From positions 746,786 through 810,785 of the forward strand of contig NZ_RCDI01000002.1 in NCBI RefSeq assembly GCF_003675875.1: 64,000 nucleotides of DNA. The letters are read 5' to 3'. Under the pieces are notes generated by a model. It made no database searches. It saw only the letters and a program-made list of their open reading frames with translations, and had not been told where the DNA came from. Positions 28,364 through 52,269 of this stretch are shown piece by piece. The stretch comes from Halostella limicola (GTDB taxonomy: Archaea > Halobacteriota > Halobacteria > Halobacteriales > Natronoarchaeaceae). The position numbers were made by a program, and so were the translations under genes. The stretch's first letter is position 1. Every line of letters begins with the position of its first letter.

Positions 28364-28729
28364 CTATAATTCGACTACCAATTCACCGTCTCTGGTTTTC
28401 ACAGGGTATGTGGGAAGTTGATCATCCCTGGGCGCGAGGCAGTCACCCGACTTCAGATCGAACTCCCACCCGTGCCACGGGCAGTTGAGGACATTGCCCT
28501 CGTTCTCCCAACAGACCTCGAGTTCGAGCGAGTCACGATCGAAGGTGCTCTCGTTGGTACCGGATATGGTCCCCTCACACGCCGGGCCGCCTTGGTGTGG
28601 GCACCAGTTGAGAAATGCGTGGTACTCTCCGTCTTTCCGGAAGATCCCTATCTCGCGACCCTCGATCTGGGCGATGATCCGTTCTCCATCCGAGATCTCG
28701 TCCGCGTCCGCGACGACGTGTTCAGTCAT
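28364..28729 (-). CDS. Rieske [2Fe-2S] protein, module A
   Basis: A 121-residue soluble Rieske-domain protein. The cluster ligands are Cys43-x-His45 (NWCPHQGG) and Cys83-x2-His86 (CPWHGWEF). The 37 residues between the two ligand pairs exceed the usual 15-20, because of an insertion with a FDRDSLELEV-type segment. There is no transmembrane helix or signal, so it should be a cytosolic electron carrier or subunit. It overlaps the upstream amidohydrolase gene by 4 nt. It is the same length as, and very similar to, the protein at 55418-55783, with ligands at identical positions. No oxygenase catalytic subunit lies nearby. Confidence 0.92.
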   Translation of the reverse strand: MTEHVVADADEISDGERIIAQIEGREIGIFRKDGEYHAFLNWCPHQGGPACEGTISGTNESTFDRDSLELEVCWENEGNVLNCPWHGWEFDLKSGDCLAPRDDQLPTYPVKTRDGELVVEL

Positions 28730-29799
28730 ATTCCTATCCCGAACACCTCGCTAGCGTTGCCCGACAACACTCGTTCCCTGTCTTCGGGGGAGAAGAGGCT
28801 ACGGAGGTACCCGTTGAGTTCAGTGGGGTGGTCGAAGTCCCAGTGAGGGTAGTCGGATGCGAACATCAGTGAGTCCTTCCCGACCATGTCGATCATGGTC
28901 TTCATGTGCTCAGGATCCATCGGCTCGCCGAGGGGCTGCGTGGCGAAATAGTAGCTGTCGCGAATGTACTCTTCCGGCTGCTTCTCGAGCAGCGGCGCTT
29001 CGCTCCGGCGCATCGAGAGTTCCTTGTTCAGTCGGAACATCATGTACGGAACCCACGAAATCCCCGCTTCCAGGAAGACGAGATCGAGGTCGGGGAACTT
29101 CTCCGGAATTCCGTTCACCATAGTGCTGGTGAGCGTCATCGTCTGACTCCAGAGGTGGGCGTTCACGTGTGCTTCCACGAACTTCTCGAACTCCTGGCTG
29201 TGGATGGGAAATTCGATGTCGAAGCCGCTGTTCGTCGCTCCGTGGTACGCGATTGGCAACCCGTTATCCTCGGCAGCTTGATAGAGTATGTCATATTCTG
29301 GGTCTCCGAGCGGAGGTCGGGGGCCCGTACTCGTCAAGAACACCCCGACGATTTTGTCCTCGTCTCCGATCCGATCGAGCTCCTCCGCGGCCTTATCCGG
29401 TTTTTGTGTTGCGACGGTAGCGAGGCCATGGAAATCGTGGTCATCCAGGAACTGATCGAGCAACAGGTCGTTGCACGCACGCTGTAAGTGAACCGCGGTT
29501 TCGCTCTGCGACAGACGCGACAGGTTGACGAAGGCGTTGACAATAGGGTAGTCGATATGGATCTCGCCTTTCACCTCCTCCTCGATATCCTCGGGTGTCA
29601 GCAAAGTTCGTTCCTCGATTTTGCCCCCCATCGTCGGGTCCCACCCGGGACTTTTCAACTGCACGTCCTCGGCAGAGAGATAATCAGCGTACGGCTTATC
29701 TGCGTACTGCGCGATCTGGTCTGTCGGGGTTGTGAGGTGAATATCCGTATCCACGATAGTCTCTCGCTGAAGGAGACTGGTGTTATTGGCTTGTGCCAT
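28726..29799 (-). CDS. Amidohydrolase-2 family protein (ACMSD/decarboxylase-like), module A
   Basis: A 357-residue TIM-barrel metal-dependent hydrolase or decarboxylase. The N-terminal metal motif is DTDIH (one histidine where many relatives have HxH), then IAYHGATN, HLWSQTMT, FLEAGISWVPYM and SDYPHWDFDHP with the C-terminal aspartate. The family includes aminocarboxymuconate-semialdehyde and hydroxybenzoate decarboxylases as well as hydrolases. MAQANN was chosen as start because it matches the start of the paralogue at 54336 and lies 32 nt after a TATA-like box. It overlaps the Rieske gene by 4 nt. The substrate is unknown. Confidence 0.88.
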   Translation of the reverse strand: MAQANNTSLLQRETIVDTDIHLTTPTDQIAQYADKPYADYLSAEDVQLKSPGWDPTMGGKIEERTLLTPEDIEEEVKGEIHIDYPIVNAFVNLSRLSQSETAVHLQRACNDLLLDQFLDDHDFHGLATVATQKPDKAAEELDRIGDEDKIVGVFLTSTGPRPPLGDPEYDILYQAAEDNGLPIAYHGATNSGFDIEFPIHSQEFEKFVEAHVNAHLWSQTMTLTSTMVNGIPEKFPDLDLVFLEAGISWVPYMMFRLNKELSMRRSEAPLLEKQPEEYIRDSYYFATQPLGEPMDPEHMKTMIDMVGKDSLMFASDYPHWDFDHPTELNGYLRSLFSPEDRERVLSGNASEVFGIGI

Positions 29800-29830
29800 A
29801 CTAACAGGTGGCATTGCCATGACGAGAGTA

Positions 29831-29840
29831 ATTAAATTAT
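29831..29840 (-). promoter_or_regulatory. TATA-like box for module A amidohydrolase
   Basis: ATAATTTAAT (minus strand) lies 32-41 nt upstream of the ATG at 29799, supporting that start and a leaderless message. Confidence 0.45.
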
Positions 29841-29943
29841 CGATCACGGCAGTTTCCGGATCGGATGAATCCAGCATGCGCCTGTTGACTTGACCATCTC
29901 ATCAACCCGGAATTTTATCTCCGTCGGCGTTACACAGAGTTTT

Positions 29944-30417
29944 GTGACACAAGATATCGATAAACAAACCGTCCGAAACTGGATCGACGACGACCTCGTA
30001 CAGCGGATCGAGGACGTCACGGATGGAGACGAGGCATACAACTATCTCGTTCAGGTCTCCGGAATGAACTTCCACATCGGGAGAGTGAGAGGGACTGGGC
30101 CCATCAGTGTCGCAAGCACCATCGAGTTCGATCCGGAAACAGTCGCGCTCCTGATGGAACGGGAGGAGAAACGGCGAGACTTGTTGACGCGATTCGAACG
30201 TGTACTCACCATCGCACCCGGTTGGTACACGTTTCTCGACGGGGCCGGGAACCCCGGCTGTAACTTCACGGAGATGCGTTCGATCCGGCTGGAGTACCGG
30301 ATATATCCGGACGGAGCCAGTCAACACGCGTTGATGAACGGCCTCATCGATATGGCGAACGCGCTCGTTTTCCTGCGGGACGTAATGACGAGCCTCGCAG
30401 AAGCGGCTGACGAATAG
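29944..30417 (+). CDS. Uncharacterised archaeal protein, DUF2299-like
   Basis: About 157 residues, starting at GTG 29944, which lies 32 nt after a TTTTAT box. The segments TVRNWIDDDL, VSGMNFHIGRV, an acidic middle with MEREEKRRDLLTRFERVL and IRLEYRIYPDGASQHALMNGL recall archaeal DUF2299 proteins of unknown function. No signal peptide or membrane helix is seen. It is divergent from the module A amidohydrolase and convergent with the small protein gene. The function is unknown, and the DUF assignment comes from memory of the family pattern. Confidence 0.6.
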   Translation: MTQDIDKQTVRNWIDDDLVQRIEDVTDGDEAYNYLVQVSGMNFHIGRVRGTGPISVASTIEFDPETVALLMEREEKRRDLLTRFERVLTIAPGWYTFLDGAGNPGCNFTEMRSIRLEYRIYPDGASQHALMNGLIDMANALVFLRDVMTSLAEAADE

Positions 30418-30503
30418 GGACTGGAGCACCCCGAACTGCTCTCAGCAACTCTTGGGCGCGTTCGGCCGCTGACGGCATGACGGGATACCGGCCGTGGCGT
30501 CCG

Positions 30504-30836
30504 TCAGTTCGACCGGAGTGTCTCGGTAACGCTGTCGCGGAACTCCTCCGAGGTAACCTCGAAAACCGTGTTGCCGTTCGCGTCTCGATGGCGACCCAAG
30601 GTTAGCGCGCGTTCTCCGTCCACGATCGCTTCCCAGTCGTCCCCGTACTCGACGTCGATTCCGACGATCCGGATCGTGCAGTCCTCCTCGTTTTCGAGCT
30701 CAGAGACGACGGTGTGGGTGTACACCCCATCGCGAAAGCGCGGCGGCTCGTACGCGGGAAGATCCATTGACCGACGGAGCTGTTCGTTCTCTTCCCACCA
30801 ATCGGGGCGATGAGTACTCGATCCGTCTTCGCCCAT
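30504..30836 (-). CDS. Conserved small acidic protein, module A
   Basis: A 110-residue protein of no family I recognise. It is clearly related to the protein at 55833-56243. Shared blocks are WWEEN/WWAEN, a PPRF.DG.YTH segment, an LE.E.DC.IR segment, DW...VDG and GRHRDANGNTVFE, ending in an EF-rich tail. There are no membrane segments, and only one cysteine is conserved between the copies (in the DCTIR segment). Its recurrence beside the amidohydrolase and Rieske genes in both modules suggests a partner or modulator of that pair. Its start is 14 nt from the UspA stop, so both may be cotranscribed. Confidence 0.8.
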   Translation of the reverse strand: MGEDGSSTHRPDWWEENEQLRRSMDLPAYEPPRFRDGVYTHTVVSELENEEDCTIRIVGIDVEYGDDWEAIVDGERALTLGRHRDANGNTVFEVTSEEFRDSVTETLRSN

Positions 30837-31431: not shown

Positions 31432-33165
31432 GTGGTTGAGGTGTGTGAACATGACGCAATGAGAGGGAGACGGCTAGCCACGATAGAGGAACTGATAGCG
31501 ATCACCAGCCCGGGGGAAGAAACGGAAGAAGCAGTAGCGAGGCTGCGTTCGTGGACGAACGACAACGGGTTAGAGTTACACACGGTCGACGTCGGCTCCG
31601 ATATCGACGCCGTGTACACCGAAGAGAACGAAACGCTGGGGATCACAATCGGTGGGGACGGAACGTTTCTGGAGGGCATCCAGCAGTTCGCACCACGCAA
31701 CATCCCCCTCTTAGGGATCAATACCGGAACGCTCGCATTCCTCGTCCGGATCGACGTCGACGACCTCGAGGAGGCCCTGACAGAAGTCATTCAGGGTCGA
31801 TCCTCGATCGACAACCGACAACAGTTGTCGGTGAAAGCGAACGGGCTCGAGGCCACTGGCATCAACGACGTCATGGTCCAGAACGTGCCGCCGGAGGACC
31901 CGATCGATCGGAAGATAACGAAGCTCGACGTGTTCGCCGACGGCCAGTACGTGGGCGAGTACGATGGCACCGGTCTAGCGATCTCCACGCCAACTGGAGC
32001 GACCGGCGTTTCGCTCTCCGCGAACGGGCCGATCCACAATCCGACGAACAATTCCTCACTGCAGATCGTCCCCCTACATACTCATCAAATGGGCGTCCGA
32101 CCGCTGATCGTTAGTGAGGACACGACAATCCGGATCAACTGTACTGACGAGTCCGACTTGCTGGTAGACGGCGGCCGTCACCACGAACGCCTCGACGCAG
32201 AGGACGTGATTACCGTTACCGGAGCCGAGAACACGGCCGACCTCGTGCGAACGAGTTACGACGACGATTTCTTCACTGCGATCAGCGAACTCCTCGGATG
32301 GGGTGCGCGGGATGCAGACGGGAAATCGCTCCCGGCAGGCGTCGCGAAAAGAAACGAACCGGAGGAAATGCTCGATCGAGCACTGAAGCTAGCCAAGGAA
32401 GCGGCGAAAAGCGTACGAGAGCCGCTTCGGGATCTGCACGGAAGGATCGAATCCGAGGAGTTCAAAACCGACAAATCAGACGTCATTACGGAGGCAGACT
32501 ACCTATCGGAAAACATCATCGTGACCGCTATCGAAAACGAGTATCCCGCTCACAACATCCGGACCGAGGAGGGCGTTCACGCCAAAACCGGAAGCGACTA
32601 CACGTGGTTGATCGATCCGCTTGACGGCACCGGGAACTACGCGAACGGGAATCCAAACTACTCAGTTTCTATCGCGCTCCTCGAAGGGGACAAACCCATC
32701 GTTGGCGTGGTGTATGCGCCAGAAACAGACGAACTGTGGAGCGCAATTGCCGGTGACGGCGCTAAAAAGAACGGGGAACCGATCATGGTGACGAACCGAG
32801 ACCAGTTAGACGAGAGCATGTTGATGTCGGGATACGACCCGGACGGGAGTTTCCTCACCCACTTCTACAATGAGACGCGAGGAGTGAGGCGACTGGGGTC
32901 TGCCGCGCTGCATCTCTGCTATCTCGCCAGCGGGAGCGCCGATGCCGTTTGGGAATACGACACTCATCCGTGGGACGTCGCAGCAGGCGTCATTATCGCG
33001 AGAGAGGCGGGAGCCACTATCACGGATTCGAGCAGCGACCGCTTCAGCGTGTACGCGGAGAAAGATCGGCAGGAGCTCATCGGTTCGAATGGCTTGATAC
33101 ATGAGGACATGATGGAGCGACTGCAGCACAACGAAGAACTGTACAACACGATAGATAGAGACTGA
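31432..33165 (+). CDS. NAD kinase fused to inositol-monophosphatase-type phosphatase
   Basis: A 577-residue two-domain protein. The N-terminal half (about 1-285) is an NAD kinase with TIGGDGTFLEG and a second signature STPTGATGVSLSANGP. The C-terminal half (about 305-577) is an IMPase-fold phosphatase with DKSDVITEADYLSE, IDPLDGTGNYANGNP and HPWDVAAGVIIAREAG. It could make and remove the 2'-phosphate of NADP. Methanocaldococcus MJ0917 joins the same two activities, as I recall in the opposite order. The start is GTG 31432, 20-26 nt after an AAATATATC box; ATG 31459 is an alternative, and the usual first beta strand of NAD kinase looks short. Confidence 0.88.
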   Translation: MVEVCEHDAMRGRRLATIEELIAITSPGEETEEAVARLRSWTNDNGLELHTVDVGSDIDAVYTEENETLGITIGGDGTFLEGIQQFAPRNIPLLGINTGTLAFLVRIDVDDLEEALTEVIQGRSSIDNRQQLSVKANGLEATGINDVMVQNVPPEDPIDRKITKLDVFADGQYVGEYDGTGLAISTPTGATGVSLSANGPIHNPTNNSSLQIVPLHTHQMGVRPLIVSEDTTIRINCTDESDLLVDGGRHHERLDAEDVITVTGAENTADLVRTSYDDDFFTAISELLGWGARDADGKSLPAGVAKRNEPEEMLDRALKLAKEAAKSVREPLRDLHGRIESEEFKTDKSDVITEADYLSENIIVTAIENEYPAHNIRTEEGVHAKTGSDYTWLIDPLDGTGNYANGNPNYSVSIALLEGDKPIVGVVYAPETDELWSAIAGDGAKKNGEPIMVTNRDQLDESMLMSGYDPDGSFLTHFYNETRGVRRLGSAALHLCYLASGSADAVWEYDTHPWDVAAGVIIAREAGATITDSSSDRFSVYAEKDRQELIGSNGLIHEDMMERLQHNEELYNTIDRD

Positions 33166-34062: not shown

Positions 34063-34845
34063 ATGCGAATGGATAACAATGATACGAAAACCCTGACGAC
34101 AATCGAGAGAACGTTTGAAATAGTTGAACTGATACAGGAACTCGACGGAGCAAGGGTGTCTCAGGTGGCTGATGAGCTCGATATGCCCCGAAGTACTACG
34201 CACAACTACCTCGGAACCCTCTGTGAAGTGGGATATTTGGTCAAACACGGGGACGAGTACCATATCGGCTTGCAGTTCCTCGGACTCGGTGGCCACGCGG
34301 CAGCTCGTCACCCCGGATATCAGCTGCTCCGAACGAAGGTGAACCAGCTCGCTGAGGAGACGAACGAACGCGCACAGGTCATCGCAGAGGAGAACGGACG
34401 GGGAGTGTACATTTACGAGATGACTGGCAATAACGCAGTACAGACTGACGTTCAGATCGGCAAACACGTCCATCTGCATACGACCTCCGCCGGGAAGGCG
34501 ATTCTCGCCCACCTCCCCGAAGAGCGACTCGACCAGATCATCGACTATTGGGGCCTCCCGGAACGGACCGAGCACACGATTACGGACGAGGAGGAACTGA
34601 AAGATTGCCTCCAGCGTATCCGAGAGCGCGGATATGCGTTTAACGACGAAGAACGGATTCAGGGTCAGCGTGCAGTGGGGGTCCCAGTGTTAGATGAAAA
34701 GAACGATATCGTTACTGCGCTCAGCGTGTCTGGACCGAAGAATCGCCTCAAGGGAGATTGGTTCACGCAGGAGATCCCGGATATACTCCTCGGCATCGCA
34801 AACGAAGTCGAACTGAACCTGAAATTTTCTGGGCGTGTTAGGTAG
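34063..34845 (+). CDS. IclR-family transcriptional regulator (second of three)
   Basis: A 260-residue regulator. The winged HTH spans about residues 10-70 (LTTIERTFEIVELI, then MPRSTTHNYLGTL). The effector domain contains VHLHTTSAGKAILAHLPEERL and ERGYAFNDEERIQGQRAVGVPV, and ends with FTQEIPDILLGIANEVELNL. The same C-terminal pattern occurs in the IclR at 62672, so those two are closer to each other than to the first. It lies 816 nt upstream of, and in the same direction as, the sulfoacetaldehyde gene set, making it the best candidate regulator of that set. The effector could be a sulfonate or short acid. Confidence 0.92.
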   Translation: MRMDNNDTKTLTTIERTFEIVELIQELDGARVSQVADELDMPRSTTHNYLGTLCEVGYLVKHGDEYHIGLQFLGLGGHAAARHPGYQLLRTKVNQLAEETNERAQVIAEENGRGVYIYEMTGNNAVQTDVQIGKHVHLHTTSAGKAILAHLPEERLDQIIDYWGLPERTEHTITDEEELKDCLQRIRERGYAFNDEERIQGQRAVGVPVLDEKNDIVTALSVSGPKNRLKGDWFTQEIPDILLGIANEVELNLKFSGRVR

Positions 34846-35620
34846 AGATATTATTATCGATAATACTCTTTCTCCCTCTCACCTCTCCTACGAGGAACCG
34901 CATCGATAATTTACAGATATATCGTTGTAATCTATGGGCGGCCGACGAGAGTAATCGGAAAAACCAAACGCAGTCATACACGAAAAGCGCCGGTTTATTA
35001 CGGTCCTACGTTCGTAAAGGAGGTTTCGAAGAGAGCTATTTCCTTGATCTCGAAGGGAACGGATTATATTGTGCCATGGGAGCAGGATCCGTAACTCTTC
35101 AGGCAGATATTCGGGTTTCTCAGGAAGTTACTACAGATATCGATCTCTGCCGCAAGGAATTACAATCATATGACTGTAAGCATAGAGCGGCCTTTCGATC
35201 AGAGATGTAGTTCACTCCCTTCTGCACCAGTTCATTGACTGTTTTCCCCCAGTTCGACTATATCGATCCTTGGTAATGAGTAACATTTGGTGGTGTGTTC
35301 ATAGCCGAAGGGGGAAAATAGACATATTCGGATTAATTGAGTTCTTTTGTTGAAGGTCTTGCACATCAAAGGTGAAAAGCTACAAAAGAGGGTATCAAGA
35401 TGTACTGTCCGAATATATCCAACGCGCTAGTTGCACAGAGATAGTGCCAAGCAGACATTGAAGCGTTTCTACTGACCCGAAGATCAGTCGCGGTTCGGCC
35501 GACGAACAGTGCTAGTTCCCTCAGCGTCGGCATCACTCCTCGTTCTCAAGGCGTATATGTACCTCTTCTCTAATAATATGATTGATGATAAAATTCAGGT
35601 ATTACAATAAATATTGGAGA
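34846..35620. other. Long AT-rich region before the sulfonate genes
   Basis: About 775 bases with no intact gene. It opens with the palindrome at 34852-34865. One frame ending near 35083 reads protein-like at its C-terminus (TFVKEVSKRAISLISKGT, then a tryptophan-containing tail), possibly a gene remnant. The rest is AT-rich and could hold regulatory sites or a small RNA; no specific RNA was recognised. Confidence 0.35.
34852..34865. promoter_or_regulatory. Perfect 14-bp palindrome after the IclR gene
   Basis: TATTATCGATAATA begins seven bases after the IclR stop codon. Its half-sites (TATTAT/ATAATA, spacer 2) equal those of the palindrome at 54239-54254. It could be a regulator site or part of a terminator followed by a pyrimidine-rich run. 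Confidence 0.4.
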
Positions 35621-35622
35621 AA

Positions 35623-35630
35623 CATATTTA
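35623..35630 (+). promoter_or_regulatory. TATA-like box for the acylating aldehyde dehydrogenase gene
   Basis: CATATTTA lies 31-38 nt before the ATG at 35661. Just upstream, CAATA-AA-TATTG at 35605-35616 is a small perfect inverted repeat in the position of an upstream activator or repressor site. Confidence 0.45.
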
Positions 35631-35660
35631 TTCTGCGTTCTGTAACCCCGTTAGTGTGTC

Positions 35661-37091
35661 ATGAGTTTAGAGACCGATGACCAGGAGGAGACTGCGGAAG
35701 AAGTCGTAACTCGGCTGATCGAGCAAGGCCGTGCGGCAATGGCGGAGATAGAGAGCTATGACCAAGAGCGGGTCGACGAGTTGGTACAAGCCACTGCTTG
35801 GGCCATCATGGAAGACGATCGGGCGAAAGAAATCTCCGAGGTAGCCGTCGAAACAACGGGGATGGGGCGTGTCGAAGATAAGTACAGCAAGAAAAAACGC
35901 AAGACGTTGGGAACGCTTGACGATATCCTCGGGGAACCGTCGGTAGGCGTTATCAACGTTGACGAGGAGGAGGGCATCACCGAGATCGCCAAGCCCGTCG
36001 GGGTCGTCGGTGCCGTGGTGCCGTCGACGAATCCGAGTTCGACCGCGGCGAACCTCGCGATGATGGCGTTGAAGGGCCGCAACGCGATCATCCTCTCACC
36101 GTCGCCGAAGGGACTGTCCGTCTGCGAACTCACCGTGGACGCGATCCACTCCGAACTCGAGAAGGTCGGCGCTCCCACGGACCTCGTACAGATGGTTCCG
36201 CCGCCCGTGAACAAGGACAAGACGTACGAGCTGATGGAACAGGTCGACCTGCTGCAGGTAACCGGCTCGTCGAACAACGTCGAACACGGCCAGAAATCGG
36301 GCACGCCGAACTACTGCGTCGGCGAGGGCAACGCCGTGGCAGTAGTCGACGACAGCGCTGACCTGGAGGCAGCGGCGAACGCCATCAAACTGAGCAAGAC
36401 CTTCGACTACGCGACGAGTTGTTCCAGCGAGAACTCCGTCGTCATTGAAGACGCGGTGTACGACGAGATGATGGCGGCTCTCGAGGACGAGGGTGGATAC
36501 GTCTGCAACTCAGACGAGAAGGAACAACTCGAGGAGACGATGTTCCCTGACGGGCATGGGTCGCTCAGCGGGGAAGTCGTCGCACAGCCGCCATCCGATA
36601 TTGCAGACGCCGCTGACTTGACTGATCCTGCAGCACAGGACGCGGAATTTTTCGTCGTAGAGGGAGAGGGCATCGGGCCGGAGTATCCCCTCTCCGGTGA
36701 GAAGCTCTCGGTCGTGCTCACGGCCTACCGCGCGTCCGACTTCGACGACGCGTTAGACATAACGAACGACATCCTCGACTTCGAGGGGTCCGGCCACTCC
36801 TGCGGGCTACACACCACGACCGACGAGCACGTCGACAAGATCGGCGAGGAGATAGACGTCTGCCGGATCCTCATCAATCAGCCACAGTGCTACGGTAACG
36901 GTGGAAACTTCAACAACGGTCTCGATTTCACCCTCTCGATGGGCGCCGGTACGTGGGGCGGGAACCAACTCGACGAGAATCTCACGTACACTCACTTCTT
37001 GAACATCACGACCGTCTCTGAGACCATCGAAGAGGAAGTTCCGTCTGAAGAGGATCTACTCGGCTCGTATCACGAAAAATATGGGAAATAG
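35661..37091 (+). CDS. sauS: Acylating aldehyde dehydrogenase, probable sulfoacetaldehyde dehydrogenase (SauS type)
   Basis: A 476-residue CoA-dependent aldehyde dehydrogenase. PVGVVGAVVPSTNPSSTAAN (112-131) and the catalytic Cys254 in KTFDYATSCSSENSVV place it with acylating enzymes (EutE, AdhE N-domain, SauS). The xsc and pta genes follow directly, with only a DUF2061 gene between. The best role is therefore reduction of sulfoacetyl-CoA to sulfoacetaldehyde with NAD(P)H, releasing CoA in the cytosol. Acetaldehyde or another aldehyde remains possible because substrate residues were not modelled. The start follows a TATA-like box by about 35 nt. Confidence 0.8.
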   Translation: MSLETDDQEETAEEVVTRLIEQGRAAMAEIESYDQERVDELVQATAWAIMEDDRAKEISEVAVETTGMGRVEDKYSKKKRKTLGTLDDILGEPSVGVINVDEEEGITEIAKPVGVVGAVVPSTNPSSTAANLAMMALKGRNAIILSPSPKGLSVCELTVDAIHSELEKVGAPTDLVQMVPPPVNKDKTYELMEQVDLLQVTGSSNNVEHGQKSGTPNYCVGEGNAVAVVDDSADLEAAANAIKLSKTFDYATSCSSENSVVIEDAVYDEMMAALEDEGGYVCNSDEKEQLEETMFPDGHGSLSGEVVAQPPSDIADAADLTDPAAQDAEFFVVEGEGIGPEYPLSGEKLSVVLTAYRASDFDDALDITNDILDFEGSGHSCGLHTTTDEHVDKIGEEIDVCRILINQPQCYGNGGNFNNGLDFTLSMGAGTWGGNQLDENLTYTHFLNITTVSETIEEEVPSEEDLLGSYHEKYGK

Positions 37092-37192
37092 GCCTCGGTC
37101 CTCTAATTTCCCTGCTCGATGATTTTTATGTGAATTGCTAAATCTGTGGTGGGTGGTTCCAATATGGCAGATTCAGAGGAAACCTCGTAACC

Positions 37193-37429
37193 ATGCTCAA
37201 TAGACAGGACGTGATGATACAGTACCAACGCCGCACAGTTGTGAAAGCCGTGATCTACCGCGTCTTTATGATCGTCATTACCGTCGTCTTCGCATTTCTT
37301 GTCACACGTCAAGCGGGAGATGCCCTCACGATCGGTCTCTGGTCAAACGCTGTCAAAACGGCCACGTACTACGGGTATGATCGGCTCTGGAATCGTATTA
37401 CGTGGGGGCTGCAATACAACGAGAACTAG
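37193..37429 (+). CDS. DUF2061-family small membrane protein
   Basis: A 78-residue protein with two hydrophobic helices (about 18-38 and 45-58). It carries the DUF2061 pattern: a basic RRTVVKAVIYRVFMI start, then KTATYYGYDRLWNRITWG at the end. The function is unknown. It sits between the acylating dehydrogenase and xsc on the same strand. DUF2061 genes, as far as I recall, also turn up in bacterial sulfur-assimilation clusters, so a membrane role linked to sulfite or sulfonate is an inference worth testing. Confidence 0.75.
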   Translation: MLNRQDVMIQYQRRTVVKAVIYRVFMIVITVVFAFLVTRQAGDALTIGLWSNAVKTATYYGYDRLWNRITWGLQYNEN

Positions 37430-37574
37430 GAGACGGCCGATCACGCGTTCTCAATATCGACGATACGGCTCGCTGTCGGAATCAAGGTACCGTTGTTGGT
37501 AGTAAATGTATCATATATTATGGTTATGGAAAGTTATAATAGTGGCCATGAAGAAGGATGTTTTGAGTTACCCA

Positions 37575-39362
37575 ATGTCACAGCAAGAGCCAGCCGAAGA
37601 AGCCGATAGCCAGCCGATTCACGAAGATACAGTGATGACGCCAAGCGAGGCGCTGTTAGAGCAGTTCGCAGCCGAGGACGCGGACGTGATGTTCGGGATC
37701 GTCGGTTCAGCGTTCATGGACTTCCTCGACATCATGCCTCAGGCGGGGATCCGCTACGTGCCCGTTCGCCACGAGCAGAACGCCGCTCACATGGCCGACG
37801 GCTACGCCCAGGCGCTCCGGGCCGAGGAACCCGGCCTCTGCGTCGCCCAGAACGGCCCAGGTGTCACCAACATGGTCACAGGGATCAAGGCAGCGCAACT
37901 CAACCACTCTCCGGTCATCATGCTGTCCCCAACGGCGACGACAGGATCGATCGGCACGGACGGCTTCCAGGAAGCCGATACGATGTCTATTTTCGAGGAC
38001 ACTGTCGACTGGCAGCAGCGCCTCGAAGACAAGAGCCGTATCGCCGAGTACGTCCGCACGGCCTACCGCCAGTCGCTCACGAAGAAGGGGCCAGCTCACA
38101 TCGACTTCCCTCGGGACAACCTCTACGGCGAGATCGAGGTCGACGTCCTGCCGCCGAACCAGTACCGGCAGACCGAAATCGGCGGTGCCGCCGAATCGGA
38201 GGTGGAGGAGGCGGTCGACATCATCGAGGACGGCGACAACGTGGCTATCATCGCCGGCCTCGGGGTTATCTACTCGGACGCCGTGGACGAGGTAGCAGAA
38301 CTCGCCGAACTCCTCAACGCGCCGGTCGCCAACTCGTATCTCCACAACGATAGCTTCCCGATCAGCCATCCCCTCGCCGTCGGTGCACTCGGATACGGGG
38401 GATCGAAAGCAGCGATGGGTCAACTCTCCGAGGCGGACACCATCGTCGCGGTCGGCAGTCGACTGAGTGGCTTCGGACTCCTCCCGCAGTACGGCATGGA
38501 CTGGTTCCCCCACGACGCCGACATCATCCAGATCGATGTCGACGCCTCCCAGATCGGCCGGACAACGTCCGTGGACCTCGGGCTGGTCGGCGACGCGGCC
38601 GAAACCGTCCGGAGCCTCACTGACAAGCTCGACTCGTCGGCCGGAGCGCCGGATTCCCGAGTCGAAGAGATCCAGGACGCGTACGCCGAGTGGAAGGAGG
38701 AACTCGAGGAGATGTCCCAGCAGGATCAGATGCCGATCCACCCGCGGCGCGGGCTCTGGGACGTCGCGCAGGCGCTGCCGGAGAACACGATCGTCTCCAC
38801 GGACATCGGGAACACGTGTTCGATGGCGAATGCCTACCTCGAGTTCGACAACCCCGGGAACTTCCTCGCCGCCGGTACGTACGGGAACTGTGGGTTCGCG
38901 TATCCGGCAGCGATGGGCGCGAAAGTCGCACGTCCGGACGCCCCTGCCGTGGCTATCACTGGCGACGGTGCGTGGGGCATGCAGCAGATGAACGAGGTGA
39001 TGACGGCCGTTCGCGAGGACATCAACGCGAACGCCATCATCTTCAACAACATGGAGTGGGGAGCGGAGAAGCAGAACCAGTACTGGTTCTACCAGGAGCG
39101 CTTCCTCGGGACCGATCTCCCCGAGAACCCCAACTTCGCCCAGATCGCCCAGGAGATGGGTGCACACGGGATCCGCGTCACGAGCCCCGACGAGATCACC
39201 GACGCGGTCGAAGAGATGCTCTCGACCGACCAGCCGACGGTGGTCGAACTCATCACCGACGGCACCGAACTCCTCGAACCGTTCCGCCGCGATGCGCTCG
39301 ACGACCCCGAGCGCGTCTTAGAGAAGTACCGGCAGCCGGGTGACGCCAACTACGACGAGTAG
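37575..39362 (+). CDS. xsc: Sulfoacetaldehyde acetyltransferase (Xsc)
   Basis: About 595 residues; a thiamine-diphosphate enzyme of the acetolactate synthase superfamily. It converts sulfoacetaldehyde plus phosphate to acetyl phosphate and sulfite. The N-terminal domain has MTPSEALLEQF, DVMFGIVGSAFMDFLDIMP, RHEQNAAHMADGYAQ with the conserved glutamate, and QNGPGVTNMVTGIKAA. The TPP/Mg motif is GDGAWGMQQMNEVM ... NNMEWGAEKQNQ, and the WGAEKxNQ block is characteristic of Xsc rather than acetolactate synthase. Start choices are 37548, 37575 (chosen) and 37635. A TATTAT and an ATAATA flank 37514-37540 in the promoter. pta follows 49 nt downstream. Confidence 0.93.
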   Translation: MSQQEPAEEADSQPIHEDTVMTPSEALLEQFAAEDADVMFGIVGSAFMDFLDIMPQAGIRYVPVRHEQNAAHMADGYAQALRAEEPGLCVAQNGPGVTNMVTGIKAAQLNHSPVIMLSPTATTGSIGTDGFQEADTMSIFEDTVDWQQRLEDKSRIAEYVRTAYRQSLTKKGPAHIDFPRDNLYGEIEVDVLPPNQYRQTEIGGAAESEVEEAVDIIEDGDNVAIIAGLGVIYSDAVDEVAELAELLNAPVANSYLHNDSFPISHPLAVGALGYGGSKAAMGQLSEADTIVAVGSRLSGFGLLPQYGMDWFPHDADIIQIDVDASQIGRTTSVDLGLVGDAAETVRSLTDKLDSSAGAPDSRVEEIQDAYAEWKEELEEMSQQDQMPIHPRRGLWDVAQALPENTIVSTDIGNTCSMANAYLEFDNPGNFLAAGTYGNCGFAYPAAMGAKVARPDAPAVAITGDGAWGMQQMNEVMTAVREDINANAIIFNNMEWGAEKQNQYWFYQERFLGTDLPENPNFAQIAQEMGAHGIRVTSPDEITDAVEEMLSTDQPTVVELITDGTELLEPFRRDALDDPERVLEKYRQPGDANYDE

Positions 39363-39410
39363 GGCTCCACCCGATTCACCCTACCCGTTACAGCACATCG
39401 GAGTTGCACG

Positions 39411-40490
39411 ATGACCGAACTTTTATCAAAACTACGAAAGCAAGCGCGAGAGGAATCTCCGGAGATACTGCTCCCCGAGGCCGAGGATACGCGCGTCCTC
39501 GAAGCCGCCGCTCGCGTAGGAGAGAGTGGAATCGCACAGCCGGTCGTACTAGGAAGGAGCGAAGCAGTCCGACGCGTTGCCGACAAGAACGATATCACGC
39601 TCGACAACGTCCGAATCCTGGATCCGTCGGAAGAACAGATCGACGAGTATGCAGCGATCTACGCCGACTTGCGGGACGTACCGCACGAGATCGCTGCCGA
39701 GATGCTAAACGACGAACTCGTCCTCGGGGGGGTGATCACTAGGGTCGGCGACGTCGACGGCCTCGTCGCAGGTGCGGTCAACAGCTCAGCCGACGTCGTC
39801 GCAGTCGCAAACGGCGTCGTCGGCTTTCACCCGACGGTCGATACGGGATCGAGTTTCTTCGTTATGGTCTTCGACCGGAAGGACGTCGGCGAAAACGGCG
39901 TGCTCCTGTTCGCAGACTGCGGTGTAAACATCGCTCCCTCCGACGAACAGCTGGCCGACATTGCGGTCTCGACCGCCAACACGGCTGAGAACTTGTTCGG
40001 CTGGACGCCGAGAGTCGCCCTGCTCTCGTACTCGACGAAGGGAAGCGCGAGTCACGAAACCGTCGAAAAGATCCAGCGTACGGCCGAACTCGCCAGACAG
40101 CAGCGCGGTTCCATCATCATCGACGGCGAACTGCAGGTAGACGCAGCGCTGGTTCCGGACGTGGCCGAGAAGAAGACAGATGATTCGGCGCTGATACGGG
40201 GCGACGCGAACGTGTTGATCTTTCCCGACCTCCAGGCAGGGAATATCGCGTACAAGATATCGGAACGCCTGGCTGGCGCCACGGCGCTCGGTCCGGTCCT
40301 ACAGGGCTACGCACGACCAATCAGCGATCTCTCACGGGGTGCGAGCGCCGACGACATCGTCGACGTGATCACGGTTACAGCGGCGATGGCCGCCGCCGAC
40401 CCAGGGACGAGCGCCGGGGACATCGTCACGAGCGGTGCACTCAATAGACGGGAATCGTCGAGTTCCCTACAGCCGGTGAACACTGAGTAG
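39411..40490 (+). CDS. pta: Phosphate acetyltransferase (Pta, PTA/PTB family)
   Basis: A 359-residue single-domain enzyme that turns acetyl phosphate plus CoA into acetyl-CoA. Motifs are ILLPEAEDTRVLEAAARV, NGVVGFHPTVDTGSSFF, LLSYSTKGSASHETVEKIQ, IIDGELQVDAALVPDVAEKK and NVLIFPDLQAGNIAYKISERL. Length equals that of single-domain bacterial Pta. Placement just after xsc is the canonical arrangement of sulfonate degraders and recovers the phosphate used by Xsc. A decayed relative lies at 21139-21711. Confidence 0.93.
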   Translation: MTELLSKLRKQAREESPEILLPEAEDTRVLEAAARVGESGIAQPVVLGRSEAVRRVADKNDITLDNVRILDPSEEQIDEYAAIYADLRDVPHEIAAEMLNDELVLGGVITRVGDVDGLVAGAVNSSADVVAVANGVVGFHPTVDTGSSFFVMVFDRKDVGENGVLLFADCGVNIAPSDEQLADIAVSTANTAENLFGWTPRVALLSYSTKGSASHETVEKIQRTAELARQQRGSIIIDGELQVDAALVPDVAEKKTDDSALIRGDANVLIFPDLQAGNIAYKISERLAGATALGPVLQGYARPISDLSRGASADDIVDVITVTAAMAAADPGTSAGDIVTSGALNRRESSSSLQPVNTE

Positions 40491-40546
40491 GTTACTCCGT
40501 CTCGGTTCGTTGCCCCACTGCTCACTATCGTTATCTTGGGAGTTGG

Positions 40547-40554
40547 TTTTAAGA
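40547..40554 (+). promoter_or_regulatory. TATA-like box for the HAD gene at 40578
   Basis: TTTTAAGA lies about 30 nt before the ATG at 40578. It supports this start over an upstream in-frame ATG at 40536 and suggests the gene can be transcribed separately from pta. Confidence 0.45.
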
Positions 40555-40577
40555 CCGTGTCTGTGGTATCCACTTCC

Positions 40578-41288
40578 ATGCCTGATCTTGACCAGGTAGA
40601 GACGATAACATTCGACTCGTACACCACCCTCGTCGACGTCGGATCGCAGGCGGACGTACTCGCTGAGACCGTGGACGGGATCGAACACCCCGAGTTCGTT
40701 TCGCGGGTGTGGCGGTCTCGAAACATGATGTACACCGTGATCGCGAACGACGTCGGGGCTTACCGACCGTTTTACGAGATCCAGGGGCTCTCGCTGAAGT
40801 ACGCGCTCGAATCGTTCGGCCACGACGTACCAGGTGAGACCCGCGACGAGATTCGCCGCCGAGTCTACAAGGAGAACATCACCGTCTTCGACGACGTCCG
40901 CCCGGCGATGGAGCGACTCACCGACGCCGGCTACGATCTGTTCGTCATCTCAAACGGCGATCCGGAGATGCTGACGCACATGGTCGAGACGGCGGGTATC
41001 AGTGGTCTAGTGGAGGACGCGATCAGTGCAGACGAGATCGAGACGTTCAAGCCTGAACCCGAGATTTACCGCCACGGTGCCGCCCGAGCCGGCGCGCCGA
41101 TCGAGGATATTCTCCACGTGTCCGGCGGGACGATGCGTGACATCTGGGGCGCGAACAACGCCGGTATGGAGACGGCGTGGTTGAACCGACCGGAGAAACA
41201 CTATCCCGACGAGGAACTCGGACAGGACCCGGACATGACGATCGAAAGCCTACACGAGCTCGCCGACTCGCTAGAGCACGTCGAGTAA
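40578..41288 (+). CDS. HAD-superfamily hydrolase, type II 2-haloacid dehalogenase-like (paralogue)
   Basis: A 236-residue paralogue of the protein at 26100-26783. The nucleophile is Asp13 in TFDSYTTLVDV, with no phosphatase-type second aspartate. Motif II is ISNGDPEMLTHMV, the lysine motif is FKPEPEIYRHGAARAGAP, and the ending HVSGGTMRDIWGANNAGMETAWLNRP is typical of L-2-haloacid dehalogenases. Lying 87 nt after pta on the same strand, it may act on a side product or alternative substrate of the pathway, for example a halogenated C2 acid. That link is only positional. Confidence 0.85.
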   Translation: MPDLDQVETITFDSYTTLVDVGSQADVLAETVDGIEHPEFVSRVWRSRNMMYTVIANDVGAYRPFYEIQGLSLKYALESFGHDVPGETRDEIRRRVYKENITVFDDVRPAMERLTDAGYDLFVISNGDPEMLTHMVETAGISGLVEDAISADEIETFKPEPEIYRHGAARAGAPIEDILHVSGGTMRDIWGANNAGMETAWLNRPEKHYPDEELGQDPDMTIESLHELADSLEHVE

Positions 41289-41368
41289 CGGCTTGACCGC
41301 TCGGTGACGACGTGAAGCGTCTGCTCTACCGTCCAGAAGACGGGCAGGATGCTGTCGGTAACAGCCAC

Positions 41369-42598
41369 TCACAAGACAGCTTCAACGCCGGCGTACACTG
41401 CGTAGCTGACGAGGATTGCCCCGACGAGGGAAGCGACCCAGGCGAAGCCCGTTTTCACCATTTTCTCCCTGCCGACCCCTCCCCTGTTCCCCGCATACCC
41501 GCTTCCGACGATGGCGCTGACGATGATCTCGTTGAACGAGACTGGGATGCCGAAGAAGATCGCCGACTGTGCGATCGTGAATGAAGGAATGAGTACCGCG
41601 ATCGCGCGTTGAGGACCGAGCGACGAGTAGTCCTGCGAGAGGGCTTTGATCATCCGCGGGGCGGCCGTCCACGAGCCGATAAGCAGACCGACTCCCCCGC
41701 CGAAGAGAATGGCGAGCAGCGGAACCCCGCGTGGCTGTAAGAGTGGGATCAACGGACCGATAGCGAGGCCGACCTGACTCCCGCCCGCAGAGAACGCGAC
41801 GAGTCCCCCGAGAGCGAGGAGGAACTGTCGTTGGCCCCTCTGGATGTCTCGGGCGACGTGTTTGTACAGAACTATCGTGAGTCCCGCGCCAACTAACGCT
41901 GAAGCGAGAACCCTGCCATAGAGGACCTGGCCCGGAAAGGACGAACCGGCGAGCATCGCGAGCGACGAACTCTCCCCTGACGATCCGAGCACGACGAACT
42001 CCATGTTTGCGATGATTATTCCCGTGACTCCCCCCAATGCTCCTGTAAGGAGACTCTGCCGGTAGCGATCACACTGAAACGTTCGTGCAGCCGCGTACGA
42101 AACACTGCCACCGACGAATGGGGTGAGAATCCAAAGGAGCAGTATTTCCCGATACTTCGTCCAGGCCGGCACCCCCCCAAGCGCGAGGCCGACGCCGATG
42201 ATAGCACCCGTGGCGGTGAAGGCGGTGGAGATAGGGATGCCAGTGAAGATACCGATCGCGACGAGGAGTGCGGCCGTCATGAGGGCTATCGCCGTCCCCA
42301 GCGGCGAGAGACTGACGCCGTGAACCAGATCCGTTCCAACCGCCTTGGAGATGGCTCCGCCCTGCGTTACCGCTCCGAGGAGACACATGATACCGACGAT
42401 AAACCCGGCTCGCATCACTGAGATCGCGTTCGCACCGACTGCAGGCGCGAACGGCGTCGATCCGCTCGACCCCGCGCCGATGGTCCACGCCATGAACATA
42501 CTCGTAACTACCGCGATCAGCATGATACCGACTGTCGCTAACTCCATGGGTGTATCACACTCGGGTGGGAGCACCCGCTCGTTTTCTGGTGCATTCAC
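41369..42598 (-). CDS. PiT-family inorganic anion permease (phosphate or sulfate)
   Basis: A 409-residue membrane protein with about ten hydrophobic helices and two inverted PiT halves. The N-half has APAVGANAISVMRAGF and GIPISTAFTATGAIIGVGLALGG. The C-half has GIPVSFNEIIVSAIVGSGYAGNRGG. PiT proteins carry phosphate, and the CysP branch carries sulfate. Between xsc-pta, which cycles phosphate, and a sulfite oxidation complex, both substrates make sense. It is convergent with the HAD gene and divergent from the Soe-like genes. The substrate is not resolved. Confidence 0.85.
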   Translation of the reverse strand: MNAPENERVLPPECDTPMELATVGIMLIAVVTSMFMAWTIGAGSSGSTPFAPAVGANAISVMRAGFIVGIMCLLGAVTQGGAISKAVGTDLVHGVSLSPLGTAIALMTAALLVAIGIFTGIPISTAFTATGAIIGVGLALGGVPAWTKYREILLLWILTPFVGGSVSYAAARTFQCDRYRQSLLTGALGGVTGIIIANMEFVVLGSSGESSSLAMLAGSSFPGQVLYGRVLASALVGAGLTIVLYKHVARDIQRGQRQFLLALGGLVAFSAGGSQVGLAIGPLIPLLQPRGVPLLAILFGGGVGLLIGSWTAAPRMIKALSQDYSSLGPQRAIAVLIPSFTIAQSAIFFGIPVSFNEIIVSAIVGSGYAGNRGGVGREKMVKTGFAWVASLVGAILVSYAVYAGVEAVL

Positions 42599-42860
42599 AG
42601 GTGCTACTCATGCCCTCTTAACGATTTTGCACACGACATATGCCACCAACTGGCAAGAACACGTGACTGGACTCTGCAGAAAAGGCGGTAGATACGGGTG
42701 AGTCCCCTCTTGGTGACTATTTCCATGACCTCTGGACAGTACTTGTAGGAATAGGAACCGGTTTTGAAAGATCAGTAAAGGGCCGATACGGTGACTGAGC
42801 CGGCATGAGTAACCCCATTCGGCAGTGCTCGGAACAGTCGTGCATGTGATTGGTTCACTA

Positions 42861-42906
42861 ACCTTTATGGTTCAGCCACGTGCATTGATTCTATAGCGAA
42901 AGGAGG
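42861..42906 (+). promoter_or_regulatory. Promoter and strong Shine-Dalgarno of the Soe-like genes
   Basis: A TATA-like CTTTATGG near 42863-42870 is followed by an AGGAGG at 42901-42906, five nt before the ATG at 42912. This is one of few clearly leadered starts here, since most genes look leaderless. Confidence 0.55.
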
Positions 42907-42911
42907 AAGAG

Positions 42912-44738
42912 ATGACTAACTATGGATTCGTAATCGACAACCGGAGGTGTATCGGATGCCACGCATGTACGGTCGCGTGCAAAGCCGAACACGACGACCC
43001 GATCGGTGTGAACAAGACCTGGGTCAAGCAGATCGAGAAGGGAGACTTCCCGAACACCAATCGAAACTTTTCGGTAATGCGGTGCAACCACTGCGACGAT
43101 TCGCCGTGTACCGACGTGTGTCCCGTCACTGCGCTCTGGGAGCGCGAGGACGGTATCGTGGACTTCGACCCGGAACGGTGCATCGGCTGCAAGGCGTGCA
43201 TGCAAGGCTGTCCGTACGACGCCCTGTACATCGACCCCGAGACGTCCACCGCCGCGAAGTGTAACTACTGCTCACATCGTGTCGACTCCGGCCGGGAACC
43301 CGCTTGCGTTACCGTTTGTCCCGAGGACGCTATCATCGCGGGGGACATGGAGAACAACGACACGGAGATTACGCAGACCGTCGCAGACCAAGAGGTTCAG
43401 GCGCGGAAGCCCGAAAAAGGGACCGAACCGAAGCTGTTCTACGTCGACGGGGACGAAGGGAGTATCACTCCGGGAACGACCGCCCGAGAGGAACATTACA
43501 TGTGGAGTGATTCGCCGTCGAGGATGGAAACGCAAGGCGCTGCGCGAGAGGACTTCGACCTCCAGCGAGCAGCGGAGTCACTCGCCGAATCGGACGTCGC
43601 CTTCTCCGACGACGAAGAATCAGCACGAGCTGACGGGGGTTGTGGTTGCGGAAGCTGTGAGTGTGGTCAGAAGTCTGATCCCGGAGGCGAGCGGACGGCT
43701 TCCGACGGGGGTGTCACAAAGGGTTCAGCGATCGATGAGGAGCGCCAGCGCGTTCAGAAATCCGAAACGACGTCCGCGGTCCAGACGGAGGCGCTCGACA
43801 ACGACCGCGAGTTCGCCGACGAAGACGAGTCCAAGTCGAAGACGGAACGCGCGTACGAACTCCTCCACGAGGAGGCAAAGCGGGTCTACGACATCGACGA
43901 GAACCACTATCTCTCCTGGGGGTGGGAGGTGTACTCCTACACCTGGACGAAGTCCATCGCTGCCGGCGCCGTCCTCGTGCCCGCCATGCTCGCGGCGATG
44001 GGACTCATCAGCGTTACCCCGGAACTGATCGGCCTCAGCGCGGGCATTGGTACCGTTTTCCTGGCGATCACGGGTGTGCTTCTCATCCTCGACCTAGAGC
44101 AACCCCAGCGGTTCCACTGGGTGTTACTTCGACCGAACTGGAACTCGTGGCTGGTCAAGGGAGCGTACATCATCACCGTCTACGGAGCGATTCTCGGCTT
44201 ACTGATCGCCGGTGCGGTAGTCGGGGCCGACGTAGTTACCAATCCGGTAGTCCTGTCGGTCGCGTCGGTGGCCGCGGCGGCGACAGCGGTCTACACCGCG
44301 TTCCTCTTCAGCCAGTCGAAAGGGAGGGACCTGTGGCAGAGTCCCGCAATGCCGCTTCACATGTTCACGCAGGCGGTCATCGCCGGCGGCGCGACGACGG
44401 GCCTGCTCGGTCTGGCCGGCTTCGACGGACTCGTCGGTCCGGCCCGTCTCGTGCTCGGCGCCGGGATAGCCCTGCATGCCGCGCTGATCCTGTCGGAGAT
44501 ATTCACTCCGCATCAGACGGAAGACGCCGAAGAAGCGGCCGTCCGCATCACTCGCGGGCGGTTCAGCCGGGAGTTCTGGGTCGGCGCCGTGGGCATAGGC
44601 GTTCTGCTCCCGCTTGCCGTAGTCGCAGTCGGAGCTAGCGCTACGGCGGTCGCCGCCGCCGGCATCGCAGCCCTCGTGGGGCTGTTCGCCTACGAGTACT
44701 GCTGGATACTCGCACCGCAGACGATCTCCCTCGCCTGA
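42912..44738 (+). CDS. Fused iron-sulfur subunit and NrfD-type membrane anchor, SoeBC-like
   Basis: A 608-residue fusion. Residues 1 to about 150 are a DmsB/SoeB-type electron-transfer domain for four [4Fe-4S] clusters (CIGCHACTVACKAEHD, CNHCDDSPCTDVCP, CIGCKACMQGCPYDAL, CNYCSHRVDSGREPACVTVCP). A linker of about 160 acidic residues contains a cysteine cluster (CGCGSCECG). The C-terminal about 290 residues form an NrfD/DmsC-like membrane anchor with eight or so helices. It would pass electrons from the molybdoenzyme encoded next to it to the quinone pool. SoeB and SoeC are normally separate. Sulfite oxidation is inferred from context; other DMSO-reductase-family reactions are possible. Confidence 0.85.
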   Translation: MTNYGFVIDNRRCIGCHACTVACKAEHDDPIGVNKTWVKQIEKGDFPNTNRNFSVMRCNHCDDSPCTDVCPVTALWEREDGIVDFDPERCIGCKACMQGCPYDALYIDPETSTAAKCNYCSHRVDSGREPACVTVCPEDAIIAGDMENNDTEITQTVADQEVQARKPEKGTEPKLFYVDGDEGSITPGTTAREEHYMWSDSPSRMETQGAAREDFDLQRAAESLAESDVAFSDDEESARADGGCGCGSCECGQKSDPGGERTASDGGVTKGSAIDEERQRVQKSETTSAVQTEALDNDREFADEDESKSKTERAYELLHEEAKRVYDIDENHYLSWGWEVYSYTWTKSIAAGAVLVPAMLAAMGLISVTPELIGLSAGIGTVFLAITGVLLILDLEQPQRFHWVLLRPNWNSWLVKGAYIITVYGAILGLLIAGAVVGADVVTNPVVLSVASVAAAATAVYTAFLFSQSKGRDLWQSPAMPLHMFTQAVIAGGATTGLLGLAGFDGLVGPARLVLGAGIALHAALILSEIFTPHQTEDAEEAAVRITRGRFSREFWVGAVGIGVLLPLAVVAVGASATAVAAAGIAALVGLFAYEYCWILAPQTISLA

Positions 44739-44771
44739 AGAGACAAAAACAACGCAAACCGCAACAGAACA

Positions 44772-47700: not shown

Positions 47701-47792
47701 CCGACGAAGACGACGCGTGGTACGTCGACGGGCCGATCGGACGGTCTGAAAGATGGGACCCCAAAGACATATTATCGGACGACGATGACTAA
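44772..47792 (+). CDS. Molybdopterin oxidoreductase, SoeA-like sulfite dehydrogenase catalytic subunit
   Basis: A 1006-residue DMSO-reductase-family enzyme. The [4Fe-4S] site is Cys80-x2-Cys83-x3-Cys87-x29-Cys117 (CFNCEAGCG ... NCAKG). A probable molybdenum-ligand cysteine is Cys207 in HTNICSSGARTGYALW, as in polysulfide/thiosulfate reductase and SoeA types. There is no twin-arginine signal, so it faces the cytosol as SoeA does. It starts 33 nt after the SoeBC-like fusion and ends 5 nt before the Mrp gene. Given xsc upstream, oxidation of sulfite to sulfate is the best role. Polysulfide, arsenite or another substrate cannot be excluded. Confidence 0.82.
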   Translation: MGHEFETSQIEALAEKLGLLSNRSTDTKKQQQRLDGSEVNAIHDEDGQLASYPDPEDWDSWVEFESSGEPQEYSVVPTACFNCEAGCGLLTYINKDTGEIRKIEGNPEHPGSRGKNCAKGPATINQIEDPQRIEYPLKRDGPRGSGQWKRVDWDEALDHIASEMRTTIEDGRENEITYHVGRPGHEEYMDRVIDAWGLDGHNSHTNICSSGARTGYALWHKYDRASPDFANAEFILLLSAHLESGHYFNPHAQRIMEGMQEGGELAVMDPRLSNTAAMSDIWMPTQPGSEAAILLSIANQIIDEELYDEQFLRNWVNWRQFLDDEFPERDRTFDTYVRTLKDLYADFTPEYAEAESGVDAEKIEKVARKVGMAGDQFASYIWRSAASGNKNGWQVSRTLHFLSVLTGSVGTKGGTSPNAWHKFDPELPNEPPRQKLWDELQLPKEWPFSHYEMSQLLPYFLKEDRGKISVYFTRVFNPVYTYPDGFSWIEALTDEDKIGLHVALTPTWNETAYFADYVLPMGHSPERHDIQSQETHAGTWVTYRQPVLREYAEREGQDIDRTYEANPGEVWEEDEFWLDLSWRVDEDGELGIREYFESPYRDGEDGEPAKMTIDEYYRYIFEQEENLVEVADEKDMTPLEYMKHHGAFEASSNDYEVHEETIDDAILDEDGVYVDEYGTVRRSDPEYASESDGSEVVGVMVDGEIKRGFPTPTGKQQFYSKTMAEWGWDDLDYTVPNYLKSHVHPENIDYEDGEMVLVPTFRLPTQIHSRSSNSKYLEEISHNNPVWIHTRDAQRLDVETGDLIRVETDIGYYVNEAWVTESIKPGIVAMSHHMGQWKVNREDADSDVQEGGDPYGKVTVDLDNENNQWGMRQVEGIKPFESTDPDSERVWWNDGGVAQNLTHAPHPDPISGMHCWHQKVTVRPAESDDHYGDIYVDTDRSMEIYREWVEDAKPAPGPNGLRRPKWLKRPIAPPTATDEDDAWYVDGPIGRSERWDPKDILSDDDD

Positions 47793-47797
47793 CGATC

Positions 47798-48955: not shown

Positions 48956-49026
48956 CAGATCCTGTTAAACACCTGACGCGGGAACGTTTCGAGGGGATTC
49001 CCGGGGAAAAAGTCAATCGGGCGGAA

Positions 49027-50217: not shown

Positions 50218-50479
50218 ACCTCTCAATGAGCACAAGCAGTGATATAACACTTTTGCTAACGCATACCATGGTTGGAGTTGGCTGACTCTAACCCACAGCC
50301 GGCATAGCCGGTACTCTGGAATAATCGCTATCGGCTATCAGTACCGATACCATTATTTCGGATCGGACGGCGCATATTCCGGAGCTAAATCTCACTATCG
50401 TGCCCCGGCCCCCGACATTTCTCCGTCTAAAGCATGGTGAGAGACAGAAATCGGAGTGATATATCACAATATCGTTCAA

Positions 50480-50504: not shown

Positions 50505-50602
50505 CAATAGAACGAATTTGAGATAGTCATACGATAACAGGGATCAAAAGACAGGCAAGAGGAGGACGAAAAGCACCTATCAAACAGAGAGAGACAACAA
50601 TC

Positions 50603-52261: not shown

Positions 52262-52269
52262 CCAGAACA

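Follow-up and report, generated by a model that had tools for sequence, protein, structure and literature searches.

Probable multicomponent monooxygenases in Halostella limicola: an amidohydrolase-related dinuclear oxygenase, its Rieske ferredoxin and a linked small haloarchaeal protein

A stretch of 64,000 nucleotides from the haloarchaeon Halostella limicola (GCF_003675875.1, contig NZ_RCDI01000002.1, positions 746,786-810,785), referred to here as the window, carries two copies, A and B, of a set of three genes encoding an amidohydrolase-family enzyme, a Rieske [2Fe-2S] ferredoxin and a small protein (SP). Each copy probably represents a multicomponent monooxygenase, with the enzyme as the oxygenase, the Rieske protein as its electron donor and SP as a third component. 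The original prediction had described the set as an amidohydrolase-2 enzyme with a Rieske protein and a small protein, recurring in a second copy with a different strand layout, and the open reading frames (ORFs) of both copies have been confirmed. In both, the "amidohydrolase" almost certainly belongs to the amidohydrolase-related dinuclear oxygenases (AROs), among which are AibH2, SfbO and PtmU3, and it is named accordingly in the following list, where lengths are in amino acids (aa) and pI is the isoelectric point.

28364-28729, minus strand: copy A Rieske [2Fe-2S] ferredoxin, 121 aa, with a CxH-(37)-CxxH motif (Pfam)
28726-29877, minus strand: copy A ARO, 383 aa, labelled Amidohydro_2 by Pfam (Pfam, PDB sequence search, ligand alignment, predicted fold)
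30504-30836, minus strand: copy A SP, 110 aa, pI 4.3, predicted to form a helix followed by alpha-beta4-alpha
54306-55415, plus strand: copy B ARO, likely start at 54336, all six metal ligands present
55418-55783, plus strand: copy B Rieske ferredoxin with a CxH-(37)-CxxH motif (Pfam, motif)
55833-56243, minus strand: copy B SP, likely start at 56198 (121 aa), convergent with the Rieske gene

The 4-nucleotide overlap noted earlier between the Rieske and ARO genes of copy A lies at 28726-28729. The likely true start of the copy A ARO is M27, at 29799, given the length of its homologues and the low model confidence over the first 30 residues. Identity between the two copies is 55% for the ARO, 60% for the Rieske protein and 48% for SP. 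A recent local duplication giving rise to B from A was rejected because the two AROs fall in different supported subclades. The genome (4.1 Mb, haloarchaeal by its relatives) holds no further full copy of the set, and at E 0.001 only two amidohydrolases are found in it, one per copy.

The assignment to the AROs is carried by sequence, fold and metal ligands. The best PDB sequence matches of both copies are AROs, led by 8sm7 (E 1.1e-51 for A and 1.4e-56 for B), with AibH2 (6m1w_B; E 2.7e-34 and 1.6e-41), SfbO (entries 8sm6 and 8sm8; E 1.3e-33 and 5e-42) and 8sm9 likewise among the leading matches. When the AlphaFold model of the copy A enzyme (pLDDT 87.5, pTM 0.86) was compared with solved folds, AROs occupied rows 1-11 (Z 42.3-34.5, root-mean-square deviation 2.0-2.6 Å over 328-337 residues), followed by other enzymes from Z 33.5 down. 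The dinuclear site of AibH2 is formed by D25, H27, H211, E265, D337 and H340 (PMC7782822), which correspond to D45, H47, H212, E270, D342 and H345 in copy A. These six columns are invariant in an alignment of 33 diverse archaeal and bacterial family members, and the full set (DHHEDH) occurs in 173 of the 181 members in the fetched loci (87/91 archaeal, 86/90 bacterial). Both copies of the window combine a PF04909 TIM-barrel closest to the AROs with the six ligands and an adjacent small Rieske protein. The lack of an oxygenase beside a Rieske ferredoxin, which had been regarded as odd, holds only as long as the amidohydrolase is left out of the oxygenases; given its ARO identity the oddity disappears, since the oxygenase is the protein that had been called a hydrolase.

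The Rieske proteins point in the same direction. Their CxH and CxxH elements are separated by 37 residues in both copies, and wherever the motif was found in ARO-partner Rieske proteins the spacer is long (31-37 residues in archaea, 32-37 in bacteria), compared with 16 residues read from the alignment for the naphthalene dioxygenase ferredoxin. The Rieske proteins of the window are therefore of the ARO type and not stray dioxygenase ferredoxins. An association between AROs and Rieske proteins has been reported before, with 90% co-occurrence across the family according to two recent papers (Powell et al., 2023, PMC10401708; Liu et al., 2024, PMC10811679). One deviating case is found in a haloarchaeal genome (G236), where an ARO of the copy A type (locus L203, 4399-5502) with no Rieske gene detected adjacent to it lies 3.4 kb from a complete ARO-Rieske-SP set, which suggests shared electron donors.

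The third gene is obligately linked to the ARO. Full-length SPs number 56 among 391 Halobacteria genomes and are spread over 49 of these. None is farther than 15 kb from an ARO; for 53 the distance is at most 7 kb and for 43 at most 1 kb, while random placement would be expected to bring 0.46 SPs within 7 kb. Both the side on which the SP gene lies (upstream or downstream) and its strand vary, over four gene arrangements, so that the linkage is not that of a single frozen operon, and it persists across AROs that are only ~37% identical. On the ARO tree, a quick tree with several long branches, SP accompanies 25/26 and 24/28 rows of two deep clades and 0/26 of a third, and its presence changes 8 times compared with 37 in shuffles. 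Three genomes carry an SP gene but no ARO, and in each of them the gene is no longer intact, being split between frames in two (G120 and G323) and deprived of its C-terminal part in the other (G186). SP-like stretches in two further genomes (G331 and G266) were not counted, as they are short N-terminal resemblances within longer ORFs with no Pfam match; an apparent fusion of SP within a 558 aa ORF (locus L075) was likewise rejected as a start-site artefact, the N-terminal part being apparently a spurious frame. The co-occurrence had been taken to indicate a functional unit, a proposal that the linkage, maintained over deep divergence and rearrangement, strongly supports. The further proposals, that the Rieske protein is an electron carrier dedicated to the enzyme and that there is a third partner, are supported as well. 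It had also been suggested that homologues found mostly apart in other genomes would speak against such a unit. For 85/91 archaeal and 73/90 bacterial AROs a Rieske gene is found no more than 1 kb away, and an intact SP away from an ARO was never found among the 391 Halobacteria, yet about half of the sampled archaeal AROs are without SP.

SP itself is a protein of ~110 aa that no Pfam, NCBIfam or PHROG family matches above its cut-off, and its genes are annotated as "hypothetical protein" or left unannotated. It is strongly acidic (pI 4.3-4.6), a property common in halophile proteins, and carries the conserved motifs PxWW, YxPPRFxDG, LE, DxW, VDG, RxR and GNTxY. In an alignment of 42 members, W13 and W14 are invariant and P11, Y29, P31, D36, E48, W68, D73, R82, R84 and F99 nearly so; no Cys or His is nearly invariant. 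The predicted structure (pLDDT 87.5) consists of one helix followed by alpha-beta4-alpha. Fold searches returned no Foldseek match with E under 0.3, and the weak dsRBD-like and other alpha-beta matches from Foldseek and VIA (Z 4.5 or less) were uninformative on function.

Taking these features together with the chemistry of the family, from which the O2 chemistry is borrowed, a scheme can be proposed for dinuclear metal occupancy, electron flow and the role of SP at the protein level. A dinuclear Fe/Fe or Mn/Fe site, formed in copy A by the six residues named above, would bind and activate O2 and, by analogy with characterised members, hydroxylate a C-H bond of a small substrate. A reductase encoded elsewhere would supply electrons to the Rieske ferredoxin, which would hand them on to the dinuclear centre. 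SP, the haloarchaeal component, would act on the ARO and its ferredoxin, most likely by binding one of the two and serving in coupling, as an effector or in assembly. The linkage, the decay in genomes without an ARO and the freedom of orientation favour a partner at the protein level whose dosage need not be tied to the operon; an effector, a coupling protein or a metal-loading protein would fit. More specifically, and only tentatively, SP may be devoted to the control of O2 activation or of electron transfer, as an effector or coupling protein similar to MmoB or TmoD in function but of unrelated make. In that case no earlier component of this kind would be known for the oxygenase class, and SP would be an invention of the archaea. 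Searches with SP by sequence and by fold gave no significant match at all, whether to MmoB or TmoD or to other proteins.

Several observations weigh against this interpretation. The SP-less clade (L079-L108, 26 haloarchaeal AROs) has Rieske genes and does without SP, as do the bacterial ARO loci examined. Profile searches placed SP in none of the archaeal ARO loci already scored as lacking it and in none of 80 bacterial ARO loci, and it was absent from 19 whole bacterial genomes; the bacterial sample had been chosen by similarity to 8sm7 and is rich in Paenibacillus and Chloroflexi, with AibH2-like actinobacterial loci undersampled. SP distances correlate almost equally with those of the ARO (r 0.66) and of the Rieske protein (r 0.67), with weak partial correlations (0.22 and 0.28), so that no direct partner of SP is singled out. 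No AibF-like flavin ferredoxin reductase is encoded in the cluster, and the only FAD_binding_6 match of the genome lies ~378 kb from the window, a search that covers this family and leaves room for a reductase of another. Finally, in roughly half of the loci SP is encoded on the other strand and is thus often not co-transcribed, an arrangement that fits a regulator and a subunit about equally well.

The pairing of AROs with Rieske proteins, haloarchaea included, is already known from work published in 2023-24, and the pair described here adds a further member to a class that has been published but is for the most part uncharacterised. Both AROs of the window fall within the 555-member AibH2-like family of Powell et al. 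(2023, PMC10401708), in whose tree haloarchaea are coloured; the main text of that study makes no mention of a third conserved protein and gives few proteins as co-occurring. SP was not mentioned in the literature searched, most subscription papers and supplements lying outside that search. With the 2-aminoisobutyrate monooxygenase of Rhodococcus wratislaviensis (AibH1H2-AibG-AibF; PMC7782822, PMC10401708), the window shares the amidohydrolase-fold oxygenase, the six AibH2 ligands and the adjacent small Rieske protein. It differs in having a single ARO per copy instead of an H1/H2 pair, in the lack of an AibF-type reductase nearby and in the presence of SP, which is missing from the aib cluster. 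At three archaeal loci (L069, 8760-9896; L070, 10175-11311; L074, 8474-9907), a second amidohydrolase whose metal ligands have been lost (DQKGDH) stands beside a full-ligand ARO, a Rieske gene and SP, forming an archaeal parallel to the AibH1/AibH2 pairing in which the partner subunit is probably inactive. The closest solved structures by sequence and fold are those of SfbO and TruffO (8sm6-8sm9; PMC10811679), which likewise comprise a single ARO with a Rieske gene and the same ligands; these are bacterial, however, no SP was found in the related bacterial loci examined, and the sulfate-binding arginines of SfbO are histidines in the window AROs. The resemblance to toluene 4-monooxygenase and its TmoC and TmoD components, among the soluble diiron monooxygenases, is a functional analogy only: an oxygenase is combined with a Rieske ferredoxin and a protein of ~100 aa, but the oxygenase fold is unrelated, SP has no detected similarity to effector proteins and its role here is only proposed.

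Amidohydrolase-fold dinuclear oxygenases have been recognised only recently and few have been characterised. A conserved third protein offers a direct handle on their coupling, metal loading or control. High cytoplasmic manganese in groups of halophiles is noted by Powell et al. (PMC10401708), and the possible use of Mn/Fe by AROs would suit these organisms for that reason. The third protein also allows a correct function to be given to dozens of haloarchaeal genes labelled "amidohydrolase" by Pfam and to neighbours labelled "hypothetical protein".

The nature of the substrate is suggested, without being shown, by a sulfoacetaldehyde-degradation island between the two copies (34063-53817), which points to a sulfonate-derived compound for copy A. 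The island comprises a CoA-transferase III, TctCBA (a tripartite tricarboxylate transporter) and the following genes:

34063-34845, plus strand: IclR-family regulator
35661-37091, plus strand: SauS, acylating sulfoacetaldehyde dehydrogenase (NF047625, 677 bits, passing the equivalog cut-off of 600)
37506-39362, plus strand: Xsc, sulfoacetaldehyde acetyltransferase (NF005713, 708 bits, cut-off 620; TIGR03457, 672 bits, below its cut-off of 676)
39411-40490, plus strand: Pta, phosphotransacetylase (NF007233, 336 bits, cut-off 310)

Adjoining these genes, at 42912-47792, are an Fe-S/NrfD fusion protein and a molybdopterin oxidoreductase of ~1000 aa, possibly a SoeABC-like sulfite dehydrogenase; the best solved match is thiosulfate reductase and no family cut-off was passed. 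Just past copy B lie two proteins of the TauE/SafE family of sulfite exporters (56375-57154 and 58677-59453).

We infer a possible link in which SauS and Xsc act downstream of the ARO. Copy A, and perhaps B, would then hydroxylate an N- or O-substituted C2 sulfonate and release sulfoacetaldehyde for both enzymes, an idea compatible with the monooxygenase assignment and testable through these enzymes, although it is at present rather doubtful. In its favour, the region between the copies encodes SauS, Xsc and Pta, the exporters and the molybdenum enzyme are nearby, and the bacterial ARO SfbO produces sulfoacetaldehyde from MES and PIPES (PMC10811679), even though PIPES as its native substrate is doubted by the authors of the same study. 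Xsc is also rare (3/159 haloarchaea; 3/49 SP-bearing genomes), and the three genomes with both Xsc and SP (G000, G029 and G236) are exactly those with an ARO of the copy A type. One of them (G029) has the same SauS-Xsc-Pta-CoA-transferase-TctCBA island ~25 kb from its ARO-Rieske-SP set. In G029 and G236, however, the copy-A-type ARO and Xsc are on different contigs, and the two do not form a tight cluster outside the window; no other ARO locus has SauS or TauE, and a further genome (G157) has Xsc and no ARO at E 1e-20. In addition, R232 and R235, which bind sulfate in SfbO, are replaced by His in both copies, as seen when four of the five reported pocket residues were mapped (the published Y280 did not fit the numbering). 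The neighbours of haloarchaeal ARO loci vary, with an ABC transporter ATPase near 39/82 and an aldehyde dehydrogenase near 22/82, both named from sequence without a family scan.

The main rival concerning SP holds that it is a local regulator of the ARO operon, binding DNA, RNA or a ligand, and not a component of the enzyme. Such a role is unlikely, even if SP is often divergent or convergent to the operon (opposite strand in 20/40 near cases) and the alpha-beta-alpha core predicted for it shows a weak resemblance to dsRBD-like folds (Z under 4.5). These fold matches are within noise by the Foldseek values given above, the marked acidity of the protein argues against a regulator, and SP follows two ARO clades rather than a type of regulator; in addition, an IclR regulator is already present at many of the loci, with relatives near 43/82 of the haloarchaeal AROs.

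It is very unlikely that the enzyme is instead a mononuclear metal hydrolase or decarboxylase of the LigW, gamma-resorcylate decarboxylase or ACMSD type with an incidental Rieske partner, as the earlier assignment to a metal-dependent hydrolase or decarboxylase would imply. Pfam does name the protein Amidohydro_2, and LigW and gamma-resorcylate decarboxylase are true homologues with the same overall fold; 5-carboxyvanillate, gamma-resorcylate, dihydroxybenzoate and ACMSD decarboxylases all appear as weaker homologues. The best decarboxylase-type PDB match is, however, far weaker than the ARO matches (E 1.7e-16 for A and 5.2e-11 for B), decarboxylases score Z 32.3 and below in the fold comparison, and closest similarity to these mononuclear PF04909 enzymes was found neither by sequence nor by fold. 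The invariant six-ligand set includes H345, which is missing in the mononuclear AibH1 site, and the nearly always adjacent Rieske gene would be useless to a non-redox reaction. The hydrolase or decarboxylase assignment was therefore rejected on sequence, fold and ligands.

That plasmids or islands simply carry the three genes along side by side, with no joint function, is hardly credible, since, despite several haloarchaeal SP loci being situated on megaplasmids, the linkage is kept over dozens of genomes and many genera with otherwise different neighbours and several rearrangements, and orphan SPs decay.

Two other ORFs lie close to copy A. A divergent, unrelated ORF that is weakly DUF2299-like (29890-30417, plus strand) sits between the ARO and SP genes, and was rejected as a part of the module because it is absent from all other ARO loci. 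Further along, a single ORF at 31432-33165 fuses an ATP-NAD kinase with an inositol monophosphatase-family domain.

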